Both the position numbers and the translations under genes were made by a program. From Sipunculus nudus (Eukaryota > Annelida > Sipuncula > Golfingiida > Sipunculidae), in assembly GCA_026874595.1 (NCBI GenBank), contig CM049307.1:36436862-36500861 (forward strand): a stretch of 64,000 nt of DNA. Direction: 5' to 3'. The number at the start of each line of letters is the position of its first letter. The first letter of the stretch is position 1. The notes under the pieces are model-generated. The model was not told the DNA's origin. It saw only the letters and a program-made list of their open reading frames with translations, and made no database searches. Below, piece by piece: positions 1-64,000 of the stretch.

Positions 1-10074
<10,074 letters not shown>

Positions 10075-24962: not shown

Positions 24963-25306
24963 TCAGCAGTAACTTCCCAGCAACCTGTTCATTGGCTGAT
25001 CCAGACGTGTTGGACCGGCCTTGAACAGAGTCCGATTGAGCCCGGTTTCCCGGGGAGGTGGTGAGAAGTCTGACTCAGAGCTTGCCACGGAACTCTCGAT
25101 ATCCGACAGATCCGGCTCATTTCTGGTTCGGATGTTGCGTATTTGCTTATAGACGGTGAAGAACATCCACGACATCAGAAGGCCAGTCAGCACTGACAGA
25201 ACTATAAGCCAGATCAGTACTGTATGGCTCAGTGTAACCGTCCTGGGCATTGATACCGGGATGATCTCCCCACCTTTGTTCAGCATGGTGAGTGGATTGA
25301 AGCCAT
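24963..25306 (-). CDS. Collagen-EGF gene last exon: transmembrane helix and cytoplasmic tail
   Basis: The exon begins after TTGTAG (AG at 25307-25308), completes an Asn codon and reads [15 protein letters not shown], then a helix [20 protein letters not shown], then the basic stop-transfer [11 protein letters not shown]. The tail of about 60 residues contains an acidic Ser-rich stretch ([20 protein letters not shown]) that could be a phosphorylation or adaptor site, and ends GSYC at the TGA (plus-strand TCA 24963-24965). The helix followed by Arg/Lys supports an outside N-terminus. Confidence 0.88.
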
Positions 25307-43300: not shown

Positions 43301-46300
43301 CAGTAGAACCATCACGTCCGGGTTCTCCGTGCTCTCCCCGTTCTCCCGTAGCCCCTTTGTTTATATAAAACATGTATATTTAGAAGCCACAAATATAAAG
43401 AAGGATGTTTGTTTGCTATTTGTACAAGCTTTTATTTAGAGAATTTTATGCCGATCCAGTTACACTTATCTTATCGCGGCCTTGGGCGCCTCAGACAAAT
43501 GAAAATATACTCGACATAAAATATTAAGACATTTATTAATACTTAAATTTTACATAAACCGATTTCACAATGAGCAGCGACAATTTAATTGAATTAATAC
43601 TCAAAATTCACGATGTCATGAATGAGATCTGTACAATTCAGAAAGAAAAATTACCAATTACCTGTTGGCCCAGGTCCAGTAAGACCAATTGGGCCAACTG
43701 GTCCGGGGAAGCCAGTATAACCTTGGAGCAATAATTTTTTAAAAGTGGCAATGAGTGGTAATATTACTACTATGGTTTCAAGGTCTGACGTCACATCTCA
43801 GACAGCAATATCTTACGTCTTAATGTCATACAAAATGATTGCACATTATTAGTAACATCTTTTAGCATTATCAGAAAGTAAAGGCAAACATGGCGTAAAG
43901 ATTACTTCAGTTTTTTTAAGATTTCTTGGTTACTTTAAATTTGAATTATAAGTTTTTTATCTTAGTGTTTACATTTGCTAAATCAAATACATGTCGCGTA
44001 CCTGTGAAGCCTTGTGGGCCGACGGGACCGGGTTGTCCCGTGAACCCGCGTGGTCCCATCTCACCGGGTTGGCCCGTGAACCCACGTTGTCCCATCTCAC
44101 CGGGCTCTCCCGTGAACCCACGTGGTCCCATCTCACCCGGCTGTCCCGAAAACCCGCGTGGTCCCATCTCACCGGGCTGACCTGTAGCTCCAGTCGGTCC
44201 TGGAATCCCGCTTGTACCAGGTGCACCTGTAAATCCTGGCGGGCCTTGGGACACAAACAATATAATTTAGCACAATCTGTAGCAACGCATTACATTTACC
44301 GCTGTACCAGTACAGCGATTATTGGTACATGGTACATGGATTATTGGTTACATAATAAATTGTACTTTTTTGTGGAATAAATGAATTTTGGCCGTCTTTA
44401 GATTACAATAATGTATCATAAACCCCAACCCACTAGAACGATGTGCGTTCAGAATATGTGTTCAGATATCTGTTTAGAAAAACACAAACATAACATAAAT
44501 TGATTTTCTATCATGATGGCCACGTGAATGCAGTACCCCTGTTGTAAAATTTATTTCACCGCAACGTTTCGGAATTTTAACATCATGACCAACCTGCAGG
44601 CCCAGTTGCTCCTACCGGACCTGAGATGCCATTTTCTCCAGCAGGTCCTGGGCTTCCCCGAGGTCCTGGAGCACCTGTTGGTCCTGTAGCTCCAGTGGCG
44701 CCACCTGGGCTACCGGGGAATCCGGTGGACCCACGTGGTCCCATCGGACCTGGTTGACCTGTTGCTCCTACGGGTCCTGGATTTCCTCTTGGTCCAAGAG
44801 GCCCGGTAGAACCATCACGTCCGGGTTCTCCGTGTTCTCCCGGTTCTCCAGTAGCACCTCCAGGTATATGAAACAAGGAAATATAATAACCGTGTTGCTT
44901 ACAAATAGATACGATTGTTCACTGCATATTTTCAGCTATTCCATGCAGACTTTAAAAAAAGATTATGTTACACTAATAAAGACCCGTGGTGTGTGTGTTA
45001 AATACGTTATGGAATTATATACGTTATTATATGAGTAGATATATGTTTAATGTTAATCTAGTCCTTTATTGATGGTAGCCAAAATCTGAGCAGAAGCTAG
45101 TTACAACACATGCATAATGGGTATTAGTAAAGTTCACCCAATAGTCTTATAAAGTCACTCTGTCTTCAATTCGGGCCATTACAATAATGGGCCATTGCAT
45201 GTTTGATCTTTATATGCAGCATCTAACACCTCATACTGTTATTCCCTTATATGTGATCACATGCCGTACAATATTACATTTCTATTTCTGTATAATATAC
45301 ATAAAGGGTAATGTAATATGCAGAAATCATTCTGCTCTTACACATTACATACAACGACAAGTCAAGTGCAAATTGTTTTGTTTACCCTCTTAGCCATATT
45401 CAAATATTATTGTCTCCCTTAACGTCTTCTTACACTGATATAATGGCACACAGCAGTGACAAAGAGGACTTTCAGAAGAGGCACACAACGGAGGTATGAG
45501 AATTTGGATCAAAGCATCTGATCTCTAAACTAATTCAGATTGAATAGTTAGATAGCTTTGAAAGCCACGGGTGCAAGCATTCGATTTTAATAAAATGAAA
45601 GAAAATTGGACGAATTCTAAAATGCATGATAATACAGTTCTGTTCATGACGGATTTGATAACAATGAACTTCAGCCTCAGCTGCTCCCTAAAATATGTGT
45701 AAACAACAACAAAAAATAAAATAAATAAGTCTGGCCTCATTTTATTTCCATAAAGTATTTGTGACTTGGGATCAGCGCGGCGCGATTTTGAAGTCTTTCA
45801 ATATTGACACTAGGACTTCGTATTTTCCAAAATTGGAAGGTCGTACGTAATGTGTTACTGAAACACACCATTGGTCATTTTCAATGCGGTTTGACGAGGC
45901 ACGTATCGACAGCACCTGCATGAGGGCCCCACTTTTTTTAATAATTATGCCAGCGTAACTTGTTTTATTTTAACTATTTAAGCATCAGAAACAAAGTTTC
46001 ATGAAGGTTTGGTATTTATATCTATTGCAGGTTATATATCAACGTTGGAATACGATTATTAAAATAAAAAAAAATCAAGTTGCAATACGTACAGGACAAT
46101 TTTGCATCTTTCCTGATCTCCGATGGCCTAATCTTTTTTAGTTTTATTTCCTAAACAGATGTATATGGATGTGTATTTTTTTTAATAATCGTATACCACT
46201 TATAATGTGTAACTAGATAAATGTGTAGAGAGCCGGTTTGAAGTAATTTCAGCTATGATTACCATTGTTTAGCATTTGTTCATGCGATAGACACGGTAAT

Positions 46301-48193
46301 CATTAGTGCAGACATTTTGGAATTGTTTCAATAGACTGGGCTTCATCCTTATGTTTGGAGTATTTCGGCATTTCATGTGCGGACAATTTGGTTGGAGGTA
46401 AGTTATCAGACCTATTGATGCCATTCTTTGATTATACCTCCACCAGGTAGCTATTATGTCTTCCTCTTGGTTCATTGGTCCGTTTGTCAGTTAGCAACTT
46501 TACACAAAATGTTGTAAACGGATTTTGATGACATTTAATAGAGGGTTAGGCTATCATCCAAAGGACAATTCATTAAATGTTGGAGGAAATCTAGATTATT
46601 ACGATATATTTCTGATCCAAAGGATAATATACCATTGTGATAATGCGACGAGGATACCTCCATTCAGAGCTTTTAGGGCCAGCTTTCGTCAGGTAACTAG
46701 GCAGTTCTTTTGTCGAGAAACTGAAGGTGCCAACCTAGTAAAAACACATGAAAGCTTGACAAAGGGGTCCTGGCTGGCAAATCCATGTAGTCGTACGACT
46801 ACAGACACCAAGTTCAGAAATCCTATACAGTTGCACCCAGCATTCACAAGGCCCTGGATGATAATTCACAACCAAATCAGGTTGGCACTGAACAATGAAT
46901 AACATTTATGGTTTCGTGTTTATTCACGGCTTTTAACATCAGCATGGCTGAAGGGGACTTTACAATACCTATAAGTTAGATAACATTTGCTCGCGCTATC
47001 GATCATTTCGGAAAGGCACAGTTCAGGTAGACATTTAGCAGGGCATGAAAAAGTGACATGTGCTTTGTCTATATGTAATTGATGGAGTCCTTTACAAAGG
47101 ATAAGACAATGATATGATTGTTCAGCTGCTGCGGTCTAGGAATGGGCTGCTCTGTTTACTTGTTTTGTTTGTATTTTGTTAAATCTTCCCCTGATTCACA
47201 ATGTAAAACGGTTTCGTTTGTCTTTTATTTTGTCATGGCTGTCCGTGCAGACAGCATCAACATCAGTTATTATGTAATCTAAGTTAATGTAAATTCTATG
47301 AATATGGCCAATGAGGTATCCATGGAGCGCTGAAAAAGAGTCCCAGAAAAAAATTATATTCAGTAGCCTTTAAACATTCAGTATTCCTAAATTTAAAATG
47401 TAATAAAACAAATGTTTCCACCGTATTTTGTAAATAAATTTCGCCTTCAACCAGAGGAAGACTCATATTAATCCGCACTCAGAATTTAATTAACCTTTCA
47501 TGTGGAACTATTTCTGCCACTTAGGCCATGCGGCTTCATTTTCTTTTTCCTTTTCACGTTTTGTCCTTTCAGGCACAACCAATTTAAAGGAATCTATTTA
47601 CAGTTACACTCAGAGACAACATGGAAGGAAGCGCATTATATATTTAGAATATTTACATCCATAGAGATTTGAAAAGAAGTCTCTTTGCAAACACACGCAT
47701 CCCTAATTAAACACCTCACGGACATAGTCGATAAGAAAATAAAATGGGTTTGTAAATATTTATATCTGAAAGGGTTTTATTCAAAACACACCTCTAGGTC
47801 CTGTTGCTCCTTGTGTACCAGGGATGCCATTTTCACCAGCAGGTCCTGGGTTTCCCCGTGCTCCTGGAGCACCCGTCGGTCCTGTGGCCCCAGTGGCACC
47901 ACCTGGGCTACCAGGGATCCCGGTAGACCCCTGTGGTCCAGCCGGGCCTGGTTCACCTGTTGCTCCGGCAGGTCCTGGGTTTCCTTGTGGCCCTGGAACA
48001 CCCGTCGGCCCTGTAGCGCCCGTAGCGCCACCTGGGCCACCGGGAGGCCCTGTAGAACCATCGCGTCCGGGTTCTCCGTGCTCGCCCGTTGCTCCAGCAA
48101 CACCTTTGTATATGAGAAGCAAGCATTATATAATTGCCGAAGTATCATGTCAAGACAAAGTATATATAATAGCCCAAATGAATACAAATATAA

Positions 48194-49171: not shown

Positions 49172-50739
49172 GTTTGATGATTGGAATGAAAAATTAATTT
49201 TAATATGGTTATGCAATGATTCAAACCATAAATCATGAAATACTTTTAAAAACATGTTTGATTGGTTAAATTGATTTAATATATACATAATATTTTAACA
49301 AACCTTAAATATGTTTTAATATTTTACAGGGGAATTAAAAAAAAGTACAGAAAAAAATCAGATTTCTTCAAAGTAACCATAGTAACCCTTTGGAATAATA
49401 TTGGCTGATCACAAGCCGTCAAACTACTGAAATGTGTTGCTGGTTAAAATCTTTTCAGTCATAATCTGATAATTAGCTTAAACTGTGACCAAACTGGTCA
49501 AGGGAGTAAAGGGGTATTCTGACCGATGTGGCTTTAGGGTCAGGATGTTCATTGAGACAGATATGACCAGAGCAGAGCAGTGTTTCTCAAAGCAGTCGTC
49601 ACCACATTATGAAGTGCCCATACAGGGATTTGACTAGCCGGTGTTTAATGTCAGATACAATTAGACAGCACATGGAGTTACAATTAGTAAGGAGTCCACC
49701 TTAAGCTCTGTAGAGTTATAGGTAAATTAAGTCACCAACAGAGCCAGCTGTAGCAACACGCTCTCTATTACAAGATCAAAGGTAATCAAGCCCTTGCTTC
49801 ACTCCCAGCCATATTATGTAATATGTGAGACCTGACACAAGTGCAGGGTTACAGTCTATACACGCCATCAGGTCAGGTAACTTTATGCAAAATTATGACC
49901 AGCTTCCATTGCAAGGACAATTGTTTAAAATCTAGATTTTAGATTAATGATGCATCGTCTATTTTGTATAACAAATTGACGCTATACCTAGATACATTTG
50001 CATAGTGTTGTTACAACTGTCAGTTTTAGGGGTAAATAGGAATAGAATAAATTTTATTCAAATTTATTCATATTACTATTTTTACAACACCTGAAAACAT
50101 TTTATACAAAAATATCAGTGTTTTCAAATGATAGCTTTTTAAAGTACAATTTTATATTCATGTTCTACTGAACTGCCAGATCATCAACCAGCAGGCCAAC
50201 CCGCCTCGCACAGACTTTAATTCGGCCCTCCCCGCCCCGCACTTTCTTAGATGTAGCCTGCCCAGCCCCGCGAAGAATTCTATGCGGGGGCCCGCGGGGT
50301 CTTGCGGGCTGCGGGTCAAAACCTGCCCCGCACAGGGCCCTAGTTTGCATTCATATATATATTAAGTAAGTTCACTATTTGAATACCTGACACACTTGGA
50401 TATGCGATGGGAATATAAAATGTGTTTTCACACATCTTGTGAAGCAAATAATCGCCTCACCAGCGTATTCGAACGGCTTGAAAACAACAATGCCATTCAA
50501 TAAATCACCGACCTCTAGGTCCTGTTGCTCCTGGTGGACCAGGGATGCCATTTTGCCCAGCAGCTCCTGGGTTTCCTCGTGGTCCTGGAGGACCCGTCGG
50601 TCCTGTAGCACCTGTGGCGCCACCTGGGCTACCTGGAGGACCAGAAGAACCATCACGTCCGGGTTCTCCGGGCTCTCCCCGTTCTCCTGTAGCACCTTTG
50701 TGTATATAAAGAAAACGTATATAATAGCCAAAGTCATAA

Positions 50740-52509: not shown

Positions 52510-55500
52510 TGAAATCAAAGAATCTCGAGGTTCCCCGTTTATGTCAGCATTAACTTTATATTTTCTATATACAAGCTGTACATACATGCAGGGCAATACG
52601 AATAATTAAAAAAAAAATACATCGTAAATATATACCTAAATGTTTCTTCATATCACGAGGTGCCTTAGTTTTAATAACTCTACAGACAATTCTGTAACAC
52701 TGGATAAACGATACCGCAAATCAACAAAGTTTCTTAATTATTCTAATGTTTCCAACCTTTTGACATCAATTGCGAAATATTCCTTCTGGCAATTTTCATT
52801 CTTAAATATTTAAATGCAAAATGAAAATCTATTCAAATTATCAATATAAAACATGTTAGTAAACACCCACCTGTAGGCCCAGCAGGCCCAGTGGACCCTT
52901 CAGGTCCTGCTACGCCTGGCCTTCCAGTCGCACCTGTCGGTCCCGGATTTCCTTGAGGTCCTGTGGCGCCAGATGGACCAGCGGTGCCAGTAAACCCTTG
53001 CCTTCCGGGTTCACCACGTTCTCCCTGTGGTCCAGTGGCACCTGGAATAAATTGGAAAATAAATATGTTTACATTTCTAACTAGGCCACAACAACATTTT
53101 GTTATATTCGCGTAAAGGAATACCGCGTTAGGTTCTGAAATGACATACTTTCTATTTTTACCCTCGCCTTTTGAATATAAATTCGAACCATACAGCCATT
53201 CTAAAAAAATTCATAGCCTCTATCTAATATTTGATCGAGGTATTCGATTTGTCCAACGATAAATGCGTAACTATATTTTCATATGATTTGACATATTTCT
53301 TATTCACATGAATAGAGTTTCCGAAATATTTACTAAAACTCTATGCGTTTGTTTTCTACATTCTCAATATTAAATATATTATATAGCTTAATAAAGGCGG
53401 GATATGATAGAAAACACCAACCTGTAGGTCCAGGGGGTCCAGTTAACCCTTCAGGCCCTGCTATGCCTGGCCTTCCAGTCGCACCTGTCGGTCCTGGATT
53501 TCCTCGAGGTCCTGTGGCGCCAGACGGACCAGCGGTGCCAGTAAAGCCTTGCCTTCCGGGTTCACCACGCTCTCCTTGTTGTCCCGTGGCACCTTGATTA
53601 AATGGGTTAACAAACATTTTTCACTTTCTAATCGATCTCTACAACACGTTGTAACAGTGGCTGGAATAGAATGTGCCCTAGATATTGAATTGTAATGATT
53701 TTTCTCGTCTTACAGCTTTGGAAATTACAATCAGCCGTTAAACACTACCAAAATATAACCGGACATCAGTTACATTTCAGACAGGTTTTCTGTTTGCTAA
53801 ACGACAAATGTGTAAGGTTCCTAAATTCATCTAATACTTTTAATCCATATGAAAAGACATTTCTAGAAATAGCTATTTTATTTGACGAATTCCTTTCCTG
53901 AAAACGAAAAAACAATGCACAAGAGCCTTATAAAGGCGACACGTGTGCGACAGCACCAACCTGTAGGTCCAGCAGGTCCAGTGGACCCTTCAGGTCCTGC
54001 TACGCCTGGCCGTCCAGTCGCACCTGTCGGTCCCGGATTTCCTTGAGGTCCTGTGGCGCCAGATGGACCAGCGGTGCCAGTAAACCCTAGTCTTCCGGGT
54101 TCACCACGTTCTCCCTGTGGTCCCGTGGCACCTGGAATAATTTGGAAAATAAATATTTTTACACTTCTAACTCAACCTTTTTATCATTTTTGCGTAAAGG
54201 AATACCGCGTTAGGTGCTGAAATGACATGCTTTCCATTTTTATGCTCGTCCTTTGAACATAATATCGAACCATACAACGCTTTTAATACATTCATAGCTT
54301 CTGTCTATTCTTTGATGAAATTCTGTTTACCCAAGGACAAATCCGTAACATTATTTTCATAATTTCATTACAGATTTCTAATTAATAAGAATAAAATTTC
54401 CCGAAATAATGACTTAAACTGTATACATTTGTTTCCTACATTACAAATAATTATTATATTATATAGTTTAACAAAGAAGAGTCCAGTTAAGCCTTGCCTT
54501 CCGGGTTTACCACGTTCTCCCTGTGACCCCGTAGCACATTGAATGAATTAGAAATAAACATCTTTGCATTTTTAATAGATCACAAATTTTCTGTAACACT
54601 TCCTTTGAGGAAAAACGGGTCACAACATGCTTTACCTTGTTGCTTCCGACTTTTGATCATAAGATCGACCTAACGTCCCTTCCAGTACATTTCTCGCGTC
54701 CATCCATTTTCCTGATTCCGGTAATCAAAGGACAAATGCGTACCGGAAGTATCACAGTTCATCTTATATCTACAACCCGTTTAACGTCATTTGCGAAAAG
54801 AAATCGCCATACTAGACAAATTCCTTTCATAAATACAAAATAAAAATCTAAATGAGTTTTATAAAGGCCAATCATGTTAGAAAATACCGACCTGTAGGTC
54901 CAGCAGGTCCAGTAGGTCCAGTTGACCCTTCAAGTCCTGCTACGCCTGGCCTTCCAGTCGCACCTGTCGGTCCCGGATTTCCTTGAGGTCCTGTGGCGCC
55001 AGATGGACCAGCGGTGCCAGTAAACCCTTGCCTTCCGGGTTCACCACGTTCTCCCTGTGGTCCCGTGGCACCTGGAATAATTTGGAAAATAAATATTTTT
55101 ACACTTCTAACTCGACCACAGCAACCTTTTTATCATTTTTGCGTGAAGTAATACCGCGTTAGGTGCTGAAATGACATGCTTCTCATTTTTATGCTTGTCG
55201 TTTGAACATAAAATCGAACCATACAGCTCTTTTAACACATTCATAGCCTCTGTCTATTGTTTGATGGAATTCTGTTTACCCAAGGACAAATCCGTAACAT
55301 TGTTTTCATAATTTCATTAAAGATTTCGAAAAAATATGAATAGAATTTCCTTAAATAATGACTTAAACTGTAAACATTTGTTTCCTACATTACAAATAAT
55401 AATTATATTATAAAGTTTAACAAAGGCGAGTCCAGTAAAGCTTTGCCTTCCGGGTTTACCACGTTCTCCCTGTGACCCCGTAGTACATTGAATGAATTAG

Positions 55501-58500
55501 AAATAAACATCTTTACATTTCTAATCGATCACAACATTTCCTTTGAGGAAAAACGCGTCACAACATGCTTTGTCTTGTTGCTTACGCCTTTTGATCACAA
55601 AATATACCTTGCACCCCTTCCAGTAGATTTCTCGCATCCATCTATTTTGTTGGTTCCGGTAGTCAAAGGACAAATGCGTAACGGATGTATCACAGTTCAA
55701 CTATTATATCTACAAGTTAACGTCATTTGAGAAAATAAATCGCCGTACTAGACAAATTCCTTTCATAAATACAAAATGAAAATCTAAATGAGTTTTATAA
55801 AGACCGATCATGTTAGTAAATGCCGACCTGTAGGTCCTGCAGGTCCAGTAGGTCCAGTTGACCCTTCAAGTCCTGCTACGCCTGGCCTTCCAGTCGCACC
55901 TGTCGGTCCCGGATTTCCTTGAGGTCCTGTGGCGCCAGATGGACCAGCGGTGCCAGTAAACCCTTGCCTTCCGGGTTCACCACGTTCTCCCTGTGGTCCC
56001 GTGGCACCTGGAATAATTTGGAAATTAAATATTTTTACCCTTCTAACTCGACCACAGCAACCTTTTTATCATTTTTGCGTAAAGTAATACCGCGTTAGGT
56101 GCTGAAATGACATGCTTTCCATTCTTATGCTCGTCCTTTGAACATAATATCGAACCATACAGCGCTTTTAATACATTCATAGCCTCTGTCTATTCTTTGA
56201 TGAAATTCTGTTTACCCAAGGACAAATCCGTAACATTATTTTCATAATTTTATTAAAGATTTCTAATTAATAAGAATAAAATTTCCCGAAATAATCACCT
56301 AAACTGTATACATTTGTTTCCTACATTACAAATAATAATTATATTATATAGTTTAACAAAGAAGAGTCCAGTTGAGCCTGACTTCCGGGTTTACCACGTT
56401 CTCCCTGTGACCCCGTAGCACATTGAATGAATTAGAAATAAACATCTTTGCATTTTTAATAGATCACAACATTTCTGTAACACTTCCTTTGAGGAAAAAC
56501 GGGTCACAACATGCTTTACCTTGTTGCTTCCGACTTTTGATCATAAGATCGACCTAACGTCCCTTCCAGTACATTTCTCGCGTCCATCCATTTTCTTGAT
56601 TCCGGTAATCAAAGGACAAATGCGTACCGGAAGTATCACAGTTCATCTTATATCTACAACCCGTTTAACGTCATTTGCGAAAAGAAATCGCCATACTAGA
56701 CAAATTCCTTTCATAAATACAAAATAAAAATCTAAATGAGTTTTATAAAGGCCAATCATGTTAGAAAATACCGACCTGTAGGTCCAGCAGGTCCAGTAGG
56801 TCCAGTTGACCCTTCAAGTCCTGCTACGCCTGGCCTTCCAGTCGCACCTGTCGGTCCCGGATTTCCTTGAGGTCCTGTGGCGCCAGATGGACCAGCGGTG
56901 CCAGTAAACCCTTGCCTTCCGGGTTCACCACGTTCTCCCTGTGGTCCCGTGGCACCTGGAATAATTTGGAAAATAAATATTTTTACACTTCTAACTCGAC
57001 CACAGCAACCTTTTTATCATTTTTGCGTTAAGAAATACCGCGTTAGGTGCTGAAATGACATGCTTCTCATTTTTATGCTTGTCGTTTGAACATAAAATCG
57101 AACCATACAGCTCTTTTAACACATTCATAGCCTCTGTCTATTGTTTGATGGAATTCTGTTTACCCAAGGACAAATCCGTAACATTGTTTTCATAATTTCA
57201 TTAAAGATTTCGAAAAAATATGAATAGAATTTCCTTAAATAATGACTTAAACTGTAAACATTTGTTTCCTACATTACAAATAATAATTATATTATAAAGT
57301 TTAACAAAGGCGAGTCCAGTAAAGCTTTGCCTTCCGGGTTTACCACGTTCTCCCTGTGACCCCGTAGTACATTGAATGAATTAGAAATAAACATCTTTAC
57401 ATTTCTAATCGATCACAACATTTCCTTTGAGGAAAAACGCGTCACAACATGCTTTGTCTTGTTGCTTACGCCTTTTGATCACAAAATATACCTTGCACCC
57501 CTTCCAGTAGATTTCTCGCATCCATCTATTTTGTTGGTTCCGGTAGTCAAAGGACAAATGCGTAACGGAAGTATCACAGTTCAACTATTATATCTACAAG
57601 TTAACGTCATTTGAGAAAATAAATCGCCGTACTAGACAAATTCCTTTCATAAATACAAAATGAAAATCTAAATGAGTTTTATAAAGACCGATCATGTTAG
57701 TAAATGCCGACCTGTAGGTCCTGCAGGTCCAGTAGGTCCAGTTGACCCTTCAAGTCCTGCTACGCCTGGCCTTCCAGTCGCACCTGTCGGTCCCGGATTT
57801 CCTTGAGGTCCTGTGGCGCCAGATGGACCAGCGGTGCCAGTAAACCCTTGCCTTCCGGGTTCACCACGTTCTCCCTGTGGTCCCGTGGCACCTGGAATAA
57901 TTTGGAAATTAAATATTTTTACCCTTCTAACTCGACCACAGCAACCTTTTTATCATTTTTGCGTTAAGTAATACCGCGTTAGGTGCTTTCCATTCTTATG
58001 CTCGTCCTTTGAACATAATATCGAACCATACAGCGCTTTTAATACATTCATAGCCTCTGTCTATTCTTTGATGAAATTCTGTTTACCCAAGGACAAATCC
58101 GTAACATTATTTTCATAATTTTATTAAAGATTTCTAATTAATAAGAATAAAATTTCCCGAAATAATCACTTAAACTGTATACATTTGTTTCCTACATTAC
58201 AAATAATAATTATATTATATAGTTTAACAAAGAAGAGTCCAGTTGAGTTTGACTTCCGGGTTTACCACGTTCTCCCTGTGACCCCGTAGCACATTGAATG
58301 AATTAGAAATAAACATCTTTGCATTTTTAATAGATCACAACATTTCTGTAACACTTCCTTTGAGGAAAAACGGGTCACAACATGCTTTACCTTGTTGCTT
58401 CCGACTTTTGATCATAAGATCGACCTAACGTCCCTTCCAGTACATTTCTCGCGTCCATCCATTTTCTTGATTCCGGTAATCAAAGGACAAATGCGTACCG

Positions 58501-61500
58501 GAAGTATCACAGTTCATCTTATATCTACAACCCGTTTAACGTCATTAGCGAAAAGAAATCGCCATACTAGACAAATTCCTTTCATAAATACAAAATAAAA
58601 ATCTAAATGAGTTTTATATAGGCCAATCATGTTAGAAAATACCGACCTGTAGGTCCAGCAGGTCCAGTAGGTCCAGTTGACCCTTCAAGTCCTGCTACGC
58701 CTGGCCTTCCAGTCGCACCTGTCGGTCCCGGATTTCCTTGAGGTCCTGTGGCGCCAGATGGACCAGCGGTGCCAGTAAACCCTTGCCTTCCGGGTTCACC
58801 ACGTTCTCCCTGTGGTCCCGTGGCACCTGGAATAATTTGGAAAATAAATATTTTTACACTTCTAACTCGACCACAGCAACCTTTTTATCATTTTTGCGTT
58901 AAGTAATACCGCGTTAGGTGCTGAAATGACATGCTTCTCCTTTTTATGCTCGTCGTTTGAACATAAAATCGAACCATACAGCTCTTTCAACACATTCATA
59001 GCCTCTGTCTATTCTTTGATGGAATTCTGTTTACCCAAGGACAAATCCGTAACATTATTTTCATAATTTCATTAAAGATTTCGAAAAAATATGAATAGAA
59101 TTTCCTTAAATAATGACTTAAACTGTAAACATTTGTTTCCTACATTACAAATAATAATTATATTATAAAGTTTAACAAAGGCGAGTCCAGTAAAGCTTTG
59201 CCTTCCGGGTTTACCACGTTCTCCCTGTGACCCCGTAGTACATTGAATGAATTAGAAATAAACATCTTTACATTTCTTATCGATCACAACATTTCCTGTG
59301 AGGAAAAACGCGTCACAACATGCTTTGTCTTGTTGCTTACGCCTTTTGATCACAAAATATACCTTGCACCCCTTCCAGTAGATTTCTCGCATCCATCTAT
59401 TTTGTTGGTTACGGTAATCAAAGGACAAATGCGTAACGGAAGTATCACAGTTCAACTATTATATCTACAAGTTAACGTCATTTGAGAAAATAAATCGCCG
59501 TACTAGACAAATTCCTTTCATAAATACAAAATGAAAATCTAAATGAGTTTTATAAAGACCGATCATGTTAGTAAATGCCGACCTGTAGGTCCTGCAGGTC
59601 CAGTAGGTCCAGTTGACCCTTCAAGTCCTGCTACGCCTGGCCTTCCAGTCGCACCTGTCAGTCCCGGATTTCCTTGAGGTCCTGTGGCGCCAGATGGACC
59701 AGCGGTGCCAGTAAACCCTTGCCTTCCGGGTTCACCACGTTCTCCCTGTGGTCCCGTGGCACCTGGAATAATTTGGAAATTAAATATTTTTACCCTTCTA
59801 ACTCGACCACAGCAACCTTTTTATCATTTTTGCGTAAAGTAATACCGCGTTAGGTGCTGAAATGACATGCTTTCCATTCTTATGCTCGTCCTTTGAACAT
59901 AATATCGAACCATACAGCGCTTTTAATACATTCATAGCCTCTGTCTATTCTTTGATGAAATTCTGTTTACCCAAGGACAAATCCGTAACATTATTTTCAT
60001 AATTTCATTACAGATTTCGAAATAATATGAATAGAATTTCCCGAAATAATGACTTTAACTGTATATATTTGTTTCCTACATTACAAATTGATATTATATT
60101 ATATAGTTTAACAAAGAAGAGTCCAGTTAAGCCTTGCCTTCCGGGTTTACCACGTTCTCCCTGTGACCCCGTAGCACATTGGATGAATTAGAAATAAACA
60201 TCTTTACATTTTTTATAGATCACAACATTTCCGTAACATTTCCTTTGAGGAAAAACGGGTCACAACATGCTTTGCCTTGTTGCTTCCGCCTTTTGAACAT
60301 AAGATCGACCTAACGTCCCTTCCAGTAGATTTCTCGCGTCCATCTATTTTGTTGGTTCCGGTAGTCAAAGGACAAATGCGTAACGGAAGTATCACAGTTC
60401 ATCTTATATCTACAACCTGTTTAACGTCATTTGCGAAAATAAATCGCCATACTAGACAAATTCCTTTCATCAATACAAAATAAAAATCTAAATGAGTTTT
60501 ATAAAGGCCAATCATGTTAGAAAATACCGACCTGTAGGTCCAGCAGGTCCAGTAGGTCCAGTTGACCCTTCAAGTCCTGCTACGCCTGGCCTTCCAGTCG
60601 CACCTGTCGGTCCCGGATTTCCTTGAGGTCCTGTGGCGCCAGATGGACCAGCGGTGCCAGTAAACCCTTGCCTTCCGGGTTCACCACGTCCTCCCTGTGG
60701 TCCCGTGGCACCTGGAATAAATTGGAAAATAAATATGTTTACATTTCTAACTAGGCCACAACAACATTTTGTTATATTCGCGTAAAGGAATACCGCGTTA
60801 GGTTCTGAAATGACATGCTTTCTATTTTTACCCTCGCCTTTTGAACATAAATTCGAACCATACAGCCATTCTAAAAAAATTCATAGCCTCTATCTATTAT
60901 TTGAGGTATTTGATTTGTCCAACGATAGATGCGTAACTATATTTTCATATATTTTGACATATTTCTTATTAACATGAATAGAGTTTCCGAAATATTTACT
61001 AAAACTCTATGCGTTTGTTTTCTACATTCTCAATATTAAATATATTATATAGCTTAATAAAGGCGGGATATGATAGAAAACACCAACCTGTAGGTCCAGG
61101 GGGTCCAGTTAACCCTTCAGGCCCTGCTATGCCTGGCCTTCCAGTCGCACCTGTCGGTCCTGGATTTCCTCGAGGTCCTGTGGCGCCAGACGGACCAGCG
61201 GTGCCAGTAAAGCCTTGCCTTCCGGGTTCACCACGCTCTCCTTGTTGTCCCGTGGCACCTTGATTAAATGGGTTAACAAACATTTTTCACTTTCTTATCG
61301 ATCTCTACAACACGTTGTAACAGTGGCTGGAATAGAATGTGCGCTAGATATTGAATTGTAATGATTTTTCTCGTCTTACAGCTTTGGAAATTACAATCAA
61401 CCGTTAAACACTACCAAAATATAACCGGACATCAGTTACATTTCAGACAGGTTTTCTGTTTGCTTAACGACAAATGTGTAAGGTTCCTAAATTCATCTAA

Positions 61501-64000
61501 TACTTTTAATCCATACGAAAAGACATTTCTAGAAATAGTTATTTTATTTGACGAATTCCTTTCCTGAAAACGAACGAAAAAACAATGCACAAGAGCCTTA
61601 TAAAGGCGACACGTGTGCGACAGCACCAACCTGTAGGTCCAGCAGGTCCAGTGGACCCTTCAGGTCCTGCTACGCCTGGCCGTCCAGTCGCACCTGTCGG
61701 TCCCGGATTTCCTTGAGGTCCTGTGGCGCCAGATGGACCAGCGGTGCCAGTAAACCCTAGTCTTCCGGGTTCACCACGTTCTCCCTGTGGTCCCGTGGCA
61801 CCTGGAATAATTTGGAAAATAAATATTTTTACACTTCTAACTCGACCACAGCAACCTTTTTATCATTTGTGCGTAAAGGAATACCGCGTTAGGTGCTGAA
61901 ATGACATGCTTCTCCTTTTTATGCTCGTCGTTTGAACATAAAATCGAACCATACAGCTCTTTCAACACATTCATAGCCTCTGTCTATTGTTTGATGGAAT
62001 TCTGTTTACCCAAGGACAAATCCGTAACATTATTTTCATAATTTCATTAAAGATTTCGAAAAAATATGAATAGAATTTCCTTAAATAATGACTTAAACTG
62101 TAAACATTTGTTTCCTACATTACAAATAATAATTATATTATAAAGTTTAACAAAGGCGAGTCCAGTAAAGCCTTGCCTTCCGGGTTTACCACGTTCTCCC
62201 TGTGACCCCGTAGTACATTGAATGAATTAGAAATAAACATCTTTACATTTCTAATCGATCACAACATTTCCTTTGAGGAAAAACGCGTCACAACATGCTT
62301 TGTCTTGTTGCTTACGCCTTTTGATCACAAAATATACCTTGCACCCCTTCCAGTAGATTTCTCGCATCCATCTATTTTGTTGGTTACGGTAGTCAAAGGA
62401 CAAATGCGTAACGGAAGTATCACAGTTCAACTATTATATCTACAAGTTAACGTCATTTGAGAAAATAAATCGCCGTACTAGACAAATTCCTTTCATAAAT
62501 ACAAAATGAAAATCTAAATGAGTTTTATAAAGACCGATCATGTTAGTAAATGCCGACCTGTAGGTCCTGCAGGTCCAGTAGGTCCAGTTGACCCTTCAAG
62601 TCCTGCTACGCCTGGCCTTCCAGTCGCACCTGTCAGTCCCGGATTTCCTTGAGGACCTGTGGCGCCAGATGGACCAGCGGTGCCAGTAAACCCTTGCCTT
62701 CCGGGTTCACCACGTTCTCCCTGTGGTCCCGTGGCACCTGGAATAATTTGGAAATTAAATATTTTTACCCTTCTAACTCAACCACAGCAACCTTTTTATC
62801 ATTTTTGCGTAAAGTAATACCGCGTTAGGTGCTGAAATGACATGCTTTCCATTCTTATGCTCGTCCTTTGAACATAATATCGAACCATACAGCGCTTTTA
62901 ATACATTCATAGCCTCTGTCTATTCTTTGATGAAATTCTGTTTACCCAAGGACAAATCCGTAACATTATTTTCATAATTTCATTACAGATTTCGAAATAA
63001 TATGAATAGAATTTCCCGAAATAATGACTTTAACTGTATATATTTGTTTCCTACATTACAAATTGATATTATATTATATAGTTTAACAAAGAAGAGTCCA
63101 GTTAAGCCTTGCCTTCCGGGTTTACCACGTTCTCCCTGTGACCCCGTAGCACATTGGATGAATTAGAAATAAACATCTTTACATTTTTTATAGATCACAA
63201 CATTTCCGTAACATTTCCTTTGAGGAAAAACGGGTCACAACATGCTTTGCCTTGTTGCTTCCGCCTTTTGAACATAAGATCGACCTAACGTCCCTTCCAG
63301 TAGATTTCTCGCGTCCATCTATTTTGTTGGTTCCGGTAGTCAAAGGACAAAAGCGTAACGGAAGTATCACAGTTCATCTTATATCTACAACCTGTTTAAC
63401 GTCATTTGCGAAAATAAATCGCCATACTAGACAAATTCCTTTCATCAATACAAAATAAAAATCTAAATGAGTTTTATAAAGGCCAATCATGTTAGAAAAT
63501 ACCGACCTGTAGGTCCAGCAGGTCCAGTAGGTCCAGTTGACCCTTCAAGTCCTGCTACGCCTGGCCTTCCAGTCGCACCTGTCGGTCCCGGATTTCCTTG
63601 AGGTCCTGTGGCGCCAGATGGACCAGCGGTGCCAGTAAACCCTTGCCTTCCGGGTTCACCACGTCCTCCCTGTGGTCCCGTGGCACCTGGAATAAATTGG
63701 AAAATAAATATGTTTACATTTCTAACTAGGCCACAACAACATTTTGTTATATTCGCGTTAAGGAATACCGCGTTAGGTTCTGAAATGACATGCTTTCTAT
63801 TTTTACCCTCGCCTTTTGAACATAAATTCGAACCATACAGCCATTCTAAAAAAATTCATAGCCTCTATCTATTATTTGAGGTATTTGATTTGTCCAACGA
63901 TAAATGCGTAACTATATTTTCATATATTTTGACATATTTCTTATTCACATGAATAGAGTTTCCGAAATATTTACTAAAACTCTATGCGTTTGTTTTCTAC
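24963..64000 (-). CDS. Transmembrane collagen with EGF modules (gene-level entry; N-terminus outside window)
   Basis: Exons on the minus strand from 63686 down to 24963 join in one frame: at least 21 collagen (Gly-X-Y) exons, four EGF-type exons and a last exon with a transmembrane helix and cytoplasmic tail. All internal exons are phase 1-1, and in the collagen exons the junction splits a Gly codon G|GN. The product would be a cell-surface protein with a long extracellular collagen stalk (about 1,300 Gly-X-Y residues visible), membrane-proximal EGF modules and a ~60-residue tail. Collagens trimerise, so the likely form is a membrane-tethered triple helix. The C-terminal helix with its basic stop-transfer side predicts type I topology, unlike vertebrate MACIT collagens, which are type II. 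A signal peptide should lie beyond 64000. I do not recognise a named orthologue. Confidence 0.88.
25307..25849 (-). other. Collagen-EGF gene intron, nothing recognised
   Basis: AT-rich intron between the membrane exon and the truncated EGF exon. No repeat family or hidden exon was seen. Confidence 0.6.
25850..25930 (-). CDS. Truncated calcium-binding EGF exon
   Basis: An 81-bp phase 1-1 exon between TTTTCAG and A|GTAGGT. It encodes [20 protein letters not shown] followed by SFYCFDS. The start DVNEC and the GSFYC turn are those of cbEGF domains, but only four cysteines are present: the C5-C6 part is missing and the frame passes straight into NGFNPL of the membrane exon. Either this is a genuinely shortened module next to the membrane or a small exon was overlooked. 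Confidence 0.8.
25931..26252 (-). other. Collagen-EGF gene intron, nothing recognised
   Basis: A 322-bp AT-rich intron between two EGF exons with no recognisable element. Confidence 0.6.
26253..26375 (-). CDS. Complete calcium-binding EGF exon
   Basis: A 123-bp phase 1-1 exon. With the split codon it reads [20 protein letters not shown], then [20 protein letters not shown]. All six cysteines, the N-x-D-E calcium ligand motif and the GSY.C.C..GY turn are present, so this is a canonical cbEGF module. In such domains Asp/Asn in [10 protein letters not shown] may be beta-hydroxylated. Confidence 0.92.
26376..27295 (-). other. Collagen-EGF gene intron with an inverted-repeat pair
   Basis: A 920-bp AT-rich intron containing the 25-bp perfect inverted repeat listed separately (26724-27204). 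Confidence 0.6.
26724..27204. mobile_element. Element-like 25-bp perfect inverted repeats, 481 bp span
   Basis: TCTGTCGAATTTTCATATAG plus five more bases at 26724-26748 is exactly reverse-complementary to 27180-27204. The interior has no ORF. A perfect 25-bp match separated by 431 bp suggests a small MITE or foldback insertion, though no target duplication was seen. Confidence 0.5.
27296..27394 (-). CDS. Partial EGF-like exon
   Basis: A 99-bp phase 1-1 exon between TTTTAG and A|GTGAGT. It encodes [20 protein letters not shown] followed by [13 protein letters not shown]. It has four cysteines in the order expected for the C3-C6 half of an EGF module (C..GY.C.C...C). Domain start residues are missing, so it is a half or strongly diverged module joined directly to the canonical cbEGF that follows. 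Confidence 0.8.
27395..29096 (-). other. Collagen-EGF gene intron with inverted HINE-like repeat copy
   Basis: The first part (27550-28110) is repeat-derived. It holds an 11-bp perfect stem GATTTGTGCCC / GGGCACAAATC (27554-27564, 27576-27586) and, on the minus strand, the same core as the 4380-5977 array. A segment AAGATCAAAGGTCACAGTAA at 28070 is a widespread repeat motif. A C run lies at 28799-28810. The remainder is unassigned AT-rich DNA. Confidence 0.55.
29097..29222 (-). CDS. EGF exon with an extra cysteine
   Basis: A 126-bp phase 1-1 exon. It encodes [20 protein letters not shown], then [20 protein letters not shown] and C. The six EGF cysteines are present, and there is a seventh in the usual Y-x-C-x-C turn (YCCMC). 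The first residues LNEC resemble a cbEGF start but with weak calcium ligands. An unpaired cysteine on the surface could link chains of the trimer. This is the first EGF module after the collagen region. Confidence 0.9.
29223..30300 (-). other. Collagen-EGF gene large intron, unique part
   Basis: About 1.1 kb of AT-rich DNA between the first EGF exon and the big tandem array, without recognised exon or element. Confidence 0.6.
30319..30669. repeat. Array of six ~29-bp hairpins, ~65-bp spacing
   Basis: Hairpins at 30319-30348, 30387-30415, 30446-30474, 30514-30538, 30569-30597 and 30641-30669 share the stem GCTTGCCG / CGGCAAGC extended by AAATC / GATTT. The copy at 30514 is a perfect 11-bp stem GCTTGCCGGAA around a GAT loop. 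Spacers are conserved (CAGTTGCGTATGTC, TGTTTGTCTGTTTG), so this is a minisatellite. A seventh copy is at 34764-34788. Confidence 0.85.
30697..30755 (+). repeat. TTTG/T7G microsatellite
   Basis: Runs of T7-8 separated by single G, preceded by TGTTTGTC. Related TTTG runs recur at 34820-34862, 36522-36546 and 38459-38475, each just before the head unit of the composite array. Confidence 0.9.
31080..36300 (+). repeat. 148-bp tandem units in several blocks
   Basis: Blocks 31080-32110, 32490-32870, 33470-34560 and 35185-36300 consist of 148-bp units: ACTTTTACAGCTAGACAGGT, GTTTTCGGCATTT, CCAGCTTGACACGACA, CCAAATCTCGCACCATATCT, CGTCAAACGAGAAAACACGA, GAAATGCTTATAACTCGGC. Blocks are themselves duplicated: 31790-32110 is nearly identical to 33960-34270, and the tail 34500-34760 to 36260-36530. 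This implies recent multi-kilobase tandem duplication. Confidence 0.85.
33176..41738 (+). promoter_or_regulatory. Twelve CTCF-like motifs, one orientation
   Basis: Matches to the CTCF core (CC-x-C-x-AG-x-GGC-x-C) occur at 33176, 37106, 37433, 37768, 38098, 38865, 39321, 40504, 40714, 40916, 41128 and 41719. Best forms are GCCACTAGGGGGCGCTGG and GCCGCCAGATGGCGCTGCAG. CTCF recognises this core across bilaterians, including the AGATGGCGC form in insects. All twelve read on the plus strand. They sit in repeats, and binding is inferred only from motif likeness. Confidence 0.5.
37080..38460 (+). repeat. ~316-bp tandem units (four copies)
   Basis: Four copies share ATATCTCGAAA, TTTTTCATTTTCCGGATATG, GCCACTAGGGGGCGCTG, ACATAAACTATAGCTTATTT, TTCTTCCTTTGAGTCTTCTC and CACTTTGTCAGTGTGTC. 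Their CTAGGGGGCGCTG cores lie at 37106, 37433, 37768 and 38098. Confidence 0.85.
40470..41880 (+). repeat. ~205-bp tandem units (five copies)
   Basis: Copies share TTTAATTATACATCAAATAT, AATATCTCGAAA, GCCGCCAGATGGCGCTGCAG, CAATCATTATTGTGCCATAT, CTCCAAAACTATAGACAGTG and TTAACCTCGTGGGGACT. The GATGGCGCTGCAG cores are spaced about 205 bp (40504, 40714, 40916, 41128) with a fifth at 41719. Confidence 0.85.
41960..42160. mobile_element. Small hAT-like MITE with G-run
   Basis: CAGGCGAGATCCAGGATTTT at 41965 is followed by two G runs (41995-42029). At the far end CCCCCCCCCCTAGATTCGCG is the approximate inverse of the start (GCGAATCTAGGGGGG against GAGATCCAGG...GGGGG). This resembles the widespread CAGGGGCGGATCC-type MITE. 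A diverged relative starts at 40342 (CCAGGGACGGATCCCCGATT). Ends are approximate. Confidence 0.35.
42359..42598 (-). CDS. Last collagen exon before EGF modules
   Basis: A 240-bp phase 1-1 exon between TTATCCCAG and G|GTAGGT. It encodes [20 protein letters not shown], with Gly-X-Y interruptions at SVTGS and QAVMGN, and two KGxRGEPG segments ([20 protein letters not shown]). It ends GPAVIPYG. The loss of strict periodicity near its end suits the end of the triple helix. The KGxRGEP sequences resemble charged pairs that stabilise collagen helices. Confidence 0.9.
42790..42879 (-). CDS. Collagen exon, 10 triplets
   Basis: A 90-bp phase 1-1 exon between CATGTAG and CAG|GTAATA. It encodes [20 protein letters not shown] followed by [10 protein letters not shown], with no interruption. 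Aromatic residues in X or Y positions (GFQ, GYT, GFP) distinguish it from the rest of the stalk. Confidence 0.9.
42880..43198 (-). other. Collagen gene intron, nothing recognised
   Basis: A 319-bp AT-rich intron. Its last 70 bp before 43199 resemble the sequence at 44520-44593, showing that the neighbouring exons were duplicated together with intron. Confidence 0.6.
43199..43354 (-). CDS. Collagen exon with GGAT interruption
   Basis: A 156-bp phase 1-1 exon. It encodes [20 protein letters not shown], then [20 protein letters not shown] and [12 protein letters not shown]. The four-residue GGAT breaks the triplet register. A TTGTTTATAT-type context precedes the acceptor AAAG. Confidence 0.9.
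43465..43735 (-). pseudogene. Decayed duplicate of the 42790 exon region
   Basis: This stretch copies 42590-42885: it starts with a remnant of the preceding exon's edge (ATCGCGGCCTTGGGCGCCT) and contains a 60-bp partial copy of the 10-triplet exon (43662-43721, [16 protein letters not shown], then PGPT). The copy has lost one residue of a triplet and its original 5' part. A chance AAG precedes GTTATACTGG in phase 1, so inclusion cannot be excluded, but the pyrimidine tract is poor. I read it as a pseudo-exon. Confidence 0.6.
44002..44244 (-). CDS. Collagen exon, 27 triplets with internal [12 protein letters not shown] repeat
   Basis: A 243-bp phase 1-1 exon. It encodes [20 protein letters not shown], then four repeats of a 12-residue unit G-Q/E-P-G-E-M-G-P/Q-R-G-F-T/S, then GPVGPQGFT. 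The 36-bp internal repeat indicates recent intra-exon duplication. No interruption of Gly-X-Y. Confidence 0.92.
44245..44593 (-). other. Collagen gene intron, nothing recognised
   Basis: A 349-bp AT-rich intron with a short TTGGTACATGGTACATGG repeat near 44320. Confidence 0.6.
44594..44857 (-). CDS. Collagen exon, 88 residues, GGAT interruption
   Basis: A 264-bp phase 1-1 exon. It encodes [60 protein letters not shown], then [18 protein letters not shown] and [10 protein letters not shown]. One GGAT interruption follows GSP. It is homologous to the exons at 43199, 47792 and 50513, differing by internal triplet insertions. Confidence 0.93.
44858..47791 (-). other. 2.9-kb collagen gene intron
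   Basis: AT-rich intron. Around 46440-46640 a segment on the plus strand (GTCCGTTTGTCAGTTAGC, ACGGATTTTGATGACATTT) resembles a dispersed repeat known from marine invertebrates. An open frame of 125 codons at 46525 on the plus strand has no recognisable family. Nothing else was identified. Confidence 0.55.
47792..48103 (-). CDS. Collagen exon, 104 residues, two GGAT interruptions
   Basis: A 312-bp phase 1-1 exon, the longest in the gene. It encodes [20 protein letters not shown] and twice the block [17 protein letters not shown], each preceded by a GGAT interruption, ending [12 protein letters not shown]. The double block shows an internal duplication of about 129 bp (43 residues, including the interruption). 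It is the largest member of the GGAT exon subfamily. Confidence 0.93.
48190..48236. repeat. (TA)n microsatellite
   Basis: About 23 TA dinucleotides in the intron 5' of the 104-residue collagen exon. Confidence 0.95.
48828..50342. mobile_element. Non-autonomous hAT transposon, 1,515 bp, 8-bp target duplication
   Basis: Ends AAGGGCCCTGCGCGGG and, inverted, TAGGGCCCTGTGCGGG are flanked by a perfect 8-bp direct repeat GTTTGCAT (48820-48827 and 50343-50350). The subterminal 200 bp at both ends are dense in CCCGCCCCGC-type motifs, typical of hAT transposase-binding repeats and strikingly GC-rich against the AT-rich intron. No transposase ORF was seen, so it is non-autonomous. An (AT)n run occupies 49118-49169. 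Confidence 0.88.
49118..49169. repeat. (AT)n microsatellite
   Basis: About 26 AT dinucleotides inside the hAT element. Confidence 0.95.
50513..50695 (-). CDS. Collagen exon, 61 residues, GGAT interruption
   Basis: A 183-bp phase 1-1 exon after ACAAAG. It encodes [40 protein letters not shown], then [20 protein letters not shown] and R. Eight triplets, one GGAT break and eleven triplets. It is the 5'-most member of the GGAT subfamily in the window. Confidence 0.93.
50740..50783. repeat. (TAA)n microsatellite
   Basis: About ten TAA repeats and related AT-rich triplets upstream of the 61-residue collagen exon. Confidence 0.9.
51383..52444. mobile_element. Tc1/mariner (pogo/Tigger-like) non-autonomous element
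   Basis: The left end CAGTCGAACCT and the right end, inverted, TAGTCCAACCTG are each next to TA, the target of this superfamily. Subterminal motifs GTGGTCGTAATAG.CAGGTG and GTGGTCGTATTT occur in both ends. CAGTCGAACCTC-type termini are typical of pogo/Tigger elements. About 1.06 kb, no transposase ORF seen. The flanking TA microsatellites make the exact target duplication uninformative. Confidence 0.65.
52444..52507. repeat. (TA)n microsatellite
   Basis: Interrupted TA dinucleotide run directly beside the mariner-like element. Confidence 0.95.
52871..53041 (-). CDS. Array collagen exon 1 (19 triplets)
   Basis: 171 bp, phase 1-1, acceptor TTCCAG. Encodes [40 protein letters not shown], then [17 protein letters not shown]. 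Gly-X-Y is unbroken. It is the array copy nearest the membrane; its 7.66-kb partner is the 180-bp exon at 60532, which has one more triplet. Confidence 0.93.
53422..53592 (-). CDS. Array collagen exon 2 (19 triplets)
   Basis: 171 bp, phase 1-1, acceptor ATCAAG. Encodes [20 protein letters not shown] and continues [11 protein letters not shown], then [15 protein letters not shown]. The Q, R, I and L substitutions set this exon type apart. It has an identical-protein partner at 61088. Confidence 0.93.
53961..54131 (-). CDS. Array collagen exon 3 (19 triplets, GRL variant)
   Basis: 171 bp, phase 1-1, acceptor TTCCAG. Differs from exon 1 by GRL in place of GRQ (CTA codon, not a stop). Its partner is at 61631 with the same variant. 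Confidence 0.93.
54480..54542 (-). pseudogene. Dead collagen exon remnant, copy 1 of 9
   Basis: The minus strand still reads GTGCTACGGGGTCACAGGGA and onward as [20 protein letters not shown], the first seven triplets of an array exon. The acceptor AG has become AT (TTCAAT|GTGC) and the 3' two thirds, with the donor, is missing. All nine copies share these losses, so decay came before amplification. Confidence 0.8.
54892..55071 (-). CDS. Array collagen exon 4 (20 triplets)
   Basis: 180 bp, phase 1-1. As exon 1 but with an extra GPT triplet and GLE instead of [21 protein letters not shown] at the end. This 20-triplet type makes up nine of the fourteen visible array exons. Confidence 0.93.
55428..55490 (-). 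pseudogene. Dead collagen exon remnant, copy 2 of 9
   Basis: Same truncated remnant as at 54480, with GTACTACGGG at its start and AAAGCTTTACTGGACTC at its end. This B subtype alternates with the A subtype along the array. Confidence 0.8.
55828..56007 (-). CDS. Array collagen exon 5 (20 triplets)
   Basis: 180 bp, phase 1-1. Same peptide as exon 4; a synonymous-looking difference (CTGCAGGTCC in place of CCAGCAGGTCC on the plus strand) marks the B-type unit. Confidence 0.93.
56364..56424 (-). pseudogene. Dead collagen exon remnant, copy 3 of 9
   Basis: A-subtype remnant with a further local deletion relative to copy 1 (GAGCCTGACTTCCGGG on the plus strand). Confidence 0.75.
56776..56955 (-). 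CDS. Array collagen exon 6 (20 triplets)
   Basis: 180 bp, phase 1-1, same peptide as exon 4, 1,884 bp away from it. Confidence 0.93.
57312..57374 (-). pseudogene. Dead collagen exon remnant, copy 4 of 9
   Basis: B-subtype remnant, 1,884 bp from copy 2, practically identical to it. Confidence 0.78.
57712..57891 (-). CDS. Array collagen exon 7 (20 triplets)
   Basis: 180 bp, phase 1-1, B-type unit, same peptide as exon 5. Its 5' intron (higher coordinates) has lost 13 bp (GAAATGACATGCT region near 57987) relative to the neighbouring units, which explains the 1,871-bp instead of 1,884-bp period. Confidence 0.93.
58235..58295 (-). pseudogene. Dead collagen exon remnant, copy 5 of 9
   Basis: A-subtype remnant like copy 3, with one or two further substitutions. 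Confidence 0.75.
58647..58826 (-). CDS. Array collagen exon 8 (20 triplets)
   Basis: 180 bp, phase 1-1, same peptide as exon 4. Confidence 0.93.
59182..59244 (-). pseudogene. Dead collagen exon remnant, copy 6 of 9
   Basis: B-subtype remnant, 1,871 bp from copy 4. Confidence 0.78.
59583..59762 (-). CDS. Array collagen exon 9 (20 triplets, GLT variant)
   Basis: 180 bp, phase 1-1. One substitution changes GPT to GLT after GNP (CTG codon). The variant is shared with the exon at 62558, linking these two copies by descent or gene conversion. Confidence 0.93.
60119..60181 (-). pseudogene. Dead collagen exon remnant, copy 7 of 9
   Basis: A-subtype remnant close to copy 1 (GTTAAGCCTTGCCTTCC on the plus strand) and nearly identical to copy 9. 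Confidence 0.78.
60532..60711 (-). CDS. Array collagen exon 10 (20 triplets, QGG variant)
   Basis: 180 bp, phase 1-1. GPQGER is changed to GPQGGR by one base (GAA-type codon to GGA). The same variant is in exon 14 at 63507, as expected for the 2,975-bp duplication. Its 5' intron resembles that of array exon 1. Confidence 0.93.
61088..61258 (-). CDS. Array collagen exon 11 (19 triplets)
   Basis: 171 bp, phase 1-1, same peptide as array exon 2 with GQQ, GPR, GIA and GLT. Exons and flanks match those at 53422 over more than 700 bp. Confidence 0.93.
61631..61801 (-). CDS. Array collagen exon 12 (19 triplets, GRL variant)
   Basis: 171 bp, phase 1-1, same peptide as array exon 3. Confidence 0.93.
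62158..62220 (-). pseudogene. Dead collagen exon remnant, copy 8 of 9
   Basis: B-subtype remnant with AAAGCCTTGCC instead of AAAGCTTTGCC on the plus strand. Confidence 0.78.
62558..62737 (-). CDS. Array collagen exon 13 (20 triplets, GLT variant)
   Basis: 180 bp, phase 1-1, same GLT variant as array exon 9; the 2,975-bp duplication carries its flanks with it. Confidence 0.93.
63094..63156 (-). pseudogene. Dead collagen exon remnant, copy 9 of 9
   Basis: A-subtype remnant, 2,975 bp from copy 7 and practically identical to it. Confidence 0.78.
63507..63686 (-). CDS. Array collagen exon 14 (20 triplets, QGG variant)
   Basis: 180 bp, phase 1-1, copy of array exon 10 including the GPQGGR change. 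Sequence beyond it (63687-64000) repeats 60712-61025, so another 171-bp exon is expected just outside the window. Confidence 0.93.

Follow-up and report, generated by a model that had tools for sequence, protein, structure and literature searches.

Collagens that combine a triple helix with an EGF domain have been described from the shell of Lingula, where some of the genes are tandem-duplicated (Luo et al. 2015, PMC4595640). The domain list of selected Lingula collagens in a figure legend of that article includes EGF_CA and FXa_inhibition, and COLFI collagens were not detected in the Lingula shell proteome (PMC4595640). A different arrangement is found in the MACIT collagens XIII, XXIII and XXV, which are membrane-anchored and have a mostly collagenous ectodomain; they are type II proteins (cytoplasmic N-terminus) with interrupted helices and were not identified in Mollusca or Annelida by the authors of PMC4678570.

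We analyzed a window of 64,000 nucleotides from Sipunculus nudus (G000:C2:36436862-36500861 of a 1.43-Gb genome) together with 180 kb on its right and 20 kb on its left, giving 264 kb; all positions are window coordinates, extended past 64,000. A splice-aware exon finder applied to the minus strand, which required an open frame, phase 1-1 and at least 80% of the glycine positions kept, returned 191 candidate exons. Seventeen candidates were assigned to an upstream gene and set apart, exons split at Gly-X-Y breaks were joined, and a first, mostly non-collagenous exon was added to the set of the remaining gene (gene 1). Gene 1 thus contained 166 collagen exons coding for 9,712 residues in 3,224 triplets, all 166 with lengths divisible by 3 and 157 with lengths divisible by 9. 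Because the finder demanded open frames and phase 1-1, single exons are to some extent intact by design, and the separate search for broken copies described below serves as the check. Three arrays were distinguished: array A (53 exons) and, upstream of it, arrays B (9 exons) and C (75 exons), with exon-poor stretches at 94.5–97.8, 112–116, 118.5–121.8 and 168.2–170.7 kb. Gene 1 also has a single 2,961-bp collagen exon with internal repeats, which is a second route of lengthening within the gene. The coordinates of these and other features are collected in the table below.

The original prediction had placed fourteen phase 1-1 collagen exons of 171 or 180 bp in nested repeats within the window. 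A repeat finder returned 14 copies on the minus strand at 52,871–63,686, all of them open, in phase 1-1 and flanked by AG/GT (five of 171 bp and nine of 180 bp), and these cassettes join into one open frame, so that added exons keep the frame as proposed. Start-to-start spacings were 551, 539, 940, 936, 948, 936, 935, 936, 949, 547, 543, 936 and 949 bp. The nesting was reproduced by self-alignment, with lags of 940, 1876, 2975 and 7670 bp at 90, 96, 98 and 92% identity, and the variants thought to be shared by distant copies were present in the expected exons, i.e., GRL in 3 and 12, GLT in 9 and 13, and QGG in 10 and 14 (numbered from the low-coordinate end). The closest blocks were 98–99% alike, consistent with the suggested recent and/or homogenized higher-order amplification, and the assignment to a transmembrane collagen gene agrees with an anchor predicted at the C-terminal end. 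The fourteen-exon expansion is therefore real, but its extent had been understated, as it belongs to a set of 166 collagen exons in three arrays, and the proposed limit at 64,000 is only the edge of the window. A decayed exon with nine copies in the window had also been missed.

Gene 1 has the long Gly-X-Y runs that characterize collagens, and the frame of one window exon matched PF01391 (E=8.8e-15). A PF01391 search of the genome at E 1e-8, a cut-off that was too strict, gave no match, and Rfam models at gathering scores had none within the window. Elsewhere in the genome, a very dense collagen locus of about 90 kb (G000:C12:9214549-9304624, minus strand) had open frames of up to 495 aa and may represent a second giant collagen gene. 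Smaller collagen loci were seen at C14:8.95–9.06 Mb and at other places (at least 169 matches, with 150 of 1,538 candidates scored).

The model of gene 1 starts with a candidate signal peptide at 188,225, ends with a stop codon at 24,963 and joins 173 exons in one frame of 10,012 aa; each of its 172 introns was in phase 1 and had AG/GT boundaries. The predicted chain has a mass of 891 kDa and contains 13 lysines and 24 cysteines, none of the latter in the helix. Its Gly-X-Y pattern showed 14 listed breaks, 12 of them internal and two at the ends. The order of parts is predicted to be a signal peptide, a short N-terminal non-collagenous segment, the helix, EGF-type domains, a transmembrane (TM) segment and a tail. 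The signal-peptide exon was the one candidate that a filter left in about 14 kb, and the upstream non-collagenous exon carries two cysteines. In a Pfam scan, the spliced C-terminal end matched FXa_inhibition (3.9e-19) and EGF_CA (4.2e-12). The remaining matches were to EGF-type families, apart from one weak unrelated match; COLFI was not among the six families matched at E up to 1, and no match to the SEA domain was obtained in the scan. The TM segment of gene 1 was recognized by eye, and the TM exon of a paralogue (gene 2) had a best 19-residue hydropathy of 2.64. The hydrophobic segment with its basic cytoplasmic flank suggests that the product of gene 1 is membrane-anchored.

Features of gene 1 and of its surroundings (window coordinates, extended past 64,000)
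Feature	Position	Strand	Remark
Exon of Ost-alpha-type organic solute transporter (PF03619)	9547-10074	+	strand opposite gene 1
TM segment, cytoplasmic tail and stop codon (predicted)	24963..25306	-	
Further EGF-like exon	25850..25930	-	
Calcium-binding EGF exon	26253..26375	-	EGF_CA/FXa_inhibition
Cysteine-containing exon	27296..27394	-	counterpart in gene 2
EGF-like exon	29097..29222	-	FXa_inhibition
Several 148-bp tandem repeat arrays	31088-36272		
Last collagen exon	42359..42598	-	
Collagen exon	42790..42879	-	
Collagen exon	43199..43354	-	interruption
Collagen exon	43662..43721	-	short
Collagen exon	44002..44244	-	internal 36-bp repeat
Collagen exon	44594..44857	-	interruption
Collagen exon	47792..48103	-	interruptions
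Collagen exon	50513..50695	-	one interruption
Array A, whole	52871-94509	-	53 exons (52.9-94.5 kb)
Array A, 3' part, 14 intact exons	52871..64000	-	continues past window to 94509
Array A, exons 1-5	52871-53041, 53422-53592, 53961-54131, 54892-55071, 55828-56007	-	
Array A, exons 6-10	56776-56955, 57712-57891, 58647-58826, 59583-59762, 60532-60711	-	
Array A, exons 11-14	61088-61258, 61631-61801, 62558-62737, 63507-63686	-	
Decayed collagen exon, nine copies	54483..63159	-	in introns
Decayed exon, positions in window	near 54544, 55493, 56428, 57377, 58299, 59248, 60184, 62223, 63159	-	
Array B	97.8-105.6 kb	-	9 exons
Array C	121.8-165.4 kb	-	75 exons
Collagen exon of 2,961 bp, 329 triplets	176376-179336	-	locus L020; internal repeats, including 189 and 279 bp
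Tandem paralogue (gene 2)	200190-215194	-	loci L022-L024

Directly upstream of gene 1 lies this tandem paralogue, which has similar N-terminal, EGF and TM exons; a rough model of it gives 17 exons for a helix of about 906 residues. Its presence, together with the differences in exon type among the arrays and the exon-poor stretches between them, might indicate that the arrays are divided among at least two neighboring collagen genes. We regard this as quite unlikely, since the exons form one frame and agree in strand and phase, and since a search of the region of 42–185 kb at E 0.1 found no further exon of the N-terminal, EGF or TM type of this family. Within the 264 kb, these exons found matches only in gene 1 and the upstream paralogue, except for one weak N-terminal match (E 0.036) that lies on the opposite strand and contains a stop. 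The TM tail had two matches in the genome, in gene 1 and the paralogue, at E up to 0.1 among four candidates scored. Judged from its sequence, the locus is very probably one gene of 163 kb whose product is a giant collagen anchored in the membrane in type I orientation, with the 3' part of the gene in the window. Such a gene would presumably be transcribed as a single mRNA, and its product would have the corresponding membrane topology.

The arrays consist of repeated blocks of several exons with their introns. In transcript order, the exon classes of array A read fDeEebEbcdedddebcadebcadebcaebcaebcaebcaebcaedededbcx. Its best self-matches covered 10,268 bp at a lag of 6,178 (98.5%), 8,947 bp at 3,916 (98.7%) and 4,498 bp at 2,975 (98.4%), and the others had 90–97% identity. 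The closest blocks, partly past the window edge, thus align over 4.5–10 kb at 98.4–98.7%, which excludes chance. Array C matched itself over 25.8 kb at a lag of 3,494 (98.2%). In its main block, identity was 98.2% between units one step apart and had dropped to 93.5% for those six steps apart, as would be expected from local unequal exchange; as an exception, the block at 158–164 kb was 96.8% like one located 15.3 kb away, above nearer pairs inside the main block. Array A showed no clean trend with distance (mean divergence 0.0131, 0.0074, 0.0161, 0.0148 and 0.0223 at lags 1–5). Each block adds 120, 234 (ebca) or 294 residues in array A and 240 in array C. The D-period of fibrillar collagens is also 234 residues. 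We considered a match between this period and the ebca block, which is probably due to chance given the 240-residue blocks of array C and the 120- and 294-residue blocks of array A.

One tandem match of array A was exact over 6,805 bp at the lag of 6,178 (60253.. = 66431.., within 60,253–73,235 on the minus strand and partly outside the window). It reflects either an extremely young duplication or a mistake in the assembly, and because of it no part of the assembly is less certain than the copy number in this region. The match exceeds its own lag, which speaks for an assembly in which haplotypes of different length were joined and the array was inflated above its true copy number. Such inflation appears improbable, as the 264 kb contain no N, the blocks bear distinct variants, and the exact repeats that rank next in length among those listed (1,593 bp in A, 800 bp in C and 303 bp in B) are shorter than usual long reads. 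Even without the 6.2-kb block, which holds 8 exons, 158 of the 166 collagen exons would be left.

We compared exons and introns of the repeated units in arrays A and C. In array C (8 units, one truncated), divergence was 5.2% in introns and 1.9% in exons, with a pN/pS of 0.41; the corresponding values for array A (6 units) were 1.54%, 0.39% and 0.31. Introns thus diverged 2.8 times (C) and 3.9 times (A) as much as exons, which refutes the earlier view that they are as alike as exons. Variable columns gave the same picture (exon 35/648 versus intron 360/2385 in C, Fisher p=2.6e-12; exon 5/702 versus intron 68/2273 in A, Fisher p=2e-4), with Fisher's test assuming independent columns. For the four exon classes with at least two members inside the window, exon identity was 0.996–1.000 and intron identity 0.984–0.997. 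Indel events in the array C blocks numbered 46 in introns and one in exons, which make up 648 of the 3,033 compared columns. No glycine position was lost among 2,969 in exons of length 9n, for which the finder required at least 80%. Searches with 164 of the 166 exons (two of more than 500 bp were omitted) found no full-length broken exon copy in the 264 kb at E 1e-6; exon-like stretches outside modelled exons comprised 35 rows at 33 places, were 43–55 bp long and all fell at copies of the decayed exon. The excess of intron divergence together with a pN/pS of 0.31–0.41 means that the array exons look selected, and they may be under purifying selection. A point on the other side is that synonymous divergence was lower than intron divergence (ratio 0.49–0.60).

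These values bear on two further possibilities. The array might be a non-functional expansion whose junk copies are open by chance. Young copies could keep open frames for a while without selection, and the indels of array A (two in introns, one in exons) are too few to be informative. However, the pN/pS values, the higher intron divergence and the indel distribution in array C make this explanation highly improbable. Alternatively, the array might serve as a pool of alternative cassettes, with splicing setting the length of the helix. Phase 1-1 exons are interchangeable, and alternative splicing of collagenous exons is known in MACIT collagens (PMC4678570). The better conservation of exons than introns in both A and C argues against such a pool, none of the data analyzed point to exon skipping, and we consider the pool unlikely.

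The decayed collagen exon found in introns of array A has lost its acceptor (AG to AT, with AAT in 34 of 34 copies), and its likeness to an exon disappears after about 52 nt. This dead exon was duplicated along with the rest; therefore, blocks of genomic DNA were copied rather than exons alone. Decayed exons were tried as a neutral control and dropped because the results were mixed: variation per site was 0.078 in decayed versus 0.048 in functional exons over all copies, but lower in the decayed ones at 60–81 kb (0.032 versus 0.051). The functional set was composed of mixed exon classes, and the decayed exons thus offer no clean neutral yardstick.

Taken with the rest of the locus, these observations are consistent with a helix that grew as exon and intron blocks were duplicated in tandem in three or more separate arrays, most simply by unequal crossing-over between similar introns. 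As the cassettes are phase 1-1 and mostly of 9n bp, each block would add whole triplets and leave frame and register intact. Exons would then be held by purifying selection, while introns drift and the dead exon is carried along.

The helix is unusual in composition compared to a stretch of 432 residues of alpha-2(I) collagen taken from a PDB alignment. Threonine occupied 32.0% of Y positions in gene 1 (38.7% in the fourteen window exons) versus 4.3% in the alpha-2(I) stretch, and only 6 lysines occurred in 9,712 residues versus 14 in that single stretch. The rise of a collagen triple helix is 0.286 nm per residue, at which about 9,700 residues of near-continuous Gly-X-Y would correspond to about 2.8 micrometres. 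The product may thus be a stiff, probably glycosylated rod of this length. More speculatively, it could act at the cell surface as a long and stiff rod, or else as a fibre precursor, and its stability could come from threonine at Y positions, which is probably glycosylated, instead of from lysine cross-links.

A threonine-rich helix of 3,224 triplets is also what would be seen in a collagen of the annelid cuticle type, i.e., a very long helix with glycosylated Y-position threonine that is secreted or shed. Annelid cuticle collagens have very long helices, and that of Riftia is stabilized by glycosylated threonine, according to a review (PMC11766948). A weak argument on the other side comes from phosphagen kinases. 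Two of the top kinase matches in the genome scored best with taurocyamine and arginine kinases and lower with the annelid-type lombricine and glycocyamine kinases, a weakly mollusc-like pattern, in a comparison of kinases other than those clustered on C9 and at C5:17.9 Mb. The annelid globin-linker family PF16915 gave no match, but its control was silent too. We find the cuticle-type interpretation rather doubtful. Phosphagen kinase exons were themselves repeated at G000:C16:44157300-44530205 (minus strand), about every 6.3 kb; 24 matches with near-equal scores were listed in 44.158–44.222 and 44.453–44.530 Mb, with more clusters on C5 and C9. One C16 copy was of the arginine/taurocyamine kinase type. 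PF14830 gave no match, and its control was silent.

If the gene model holds, gene 1 codes for a 10,012-residue membrane collagen, and the locus shows how exon cassettes with their introns can grow a rod tenfold relative to its neighbor while staying in register. It also poses a testable question, namely whether individuals of one species differ in triple-helix length, as they do for a coding VNTR, and whether this changes a tissue.

Among known systems, gene 1 lacks the C-terminal COLFI propeptide of fibrillar collagens. The Lingula shell collagens, compared by description rather than by alignment, resemble it in having collagen and EGF-type domains without COLFI, and by domain content they appear to be the nearest published kin found; the TM segment, the 9,700-residue helix and the exon arrays are features of gene 1 that the consulted description of those proteins does not include (PMC4595640). 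MACIT collagens are likewise membrane-anchored, with a type II orientation and the TM segment near the N-terminus (PMC4678570); gene 1 has a candidate signal peptide at this end and is predicted to be a type I protein with its TM segment at the C-terminus and 12 internal Gly-X-Y breaks. Annelid cuticle collagens, known here from a review, share the very long helix and, in Riftia, the richness in threonine (PMC11766948). In titles and abstract openings of the open-licence literature, we found no description of a gene such as gene 1. In transmembrane mucins with coding VNTRs, a Thr-rich repeat that varies in size is followed by juxtamembrane EGF domains and a single TM segment. Gene 1 differs from them in that its repeat is triple-helical Gly-X-Y and split by introns, and the Pfam scan showed no SEA domain. 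We tentatively propose that it might be the collagen equivalent of such a mucin: a tethered triple-helical rod of micrometre length, decorated with threonine and nearly free of lysine, whose length evolves fast and may differ among individuals by whole exon blocks (120, 234 or 294 residues in array A). Introns would be the substrate of recombination, phase 1-1 exons of 9n bp would keep the register, and the paralogue of about 906 residues could represent the unexpanded state.
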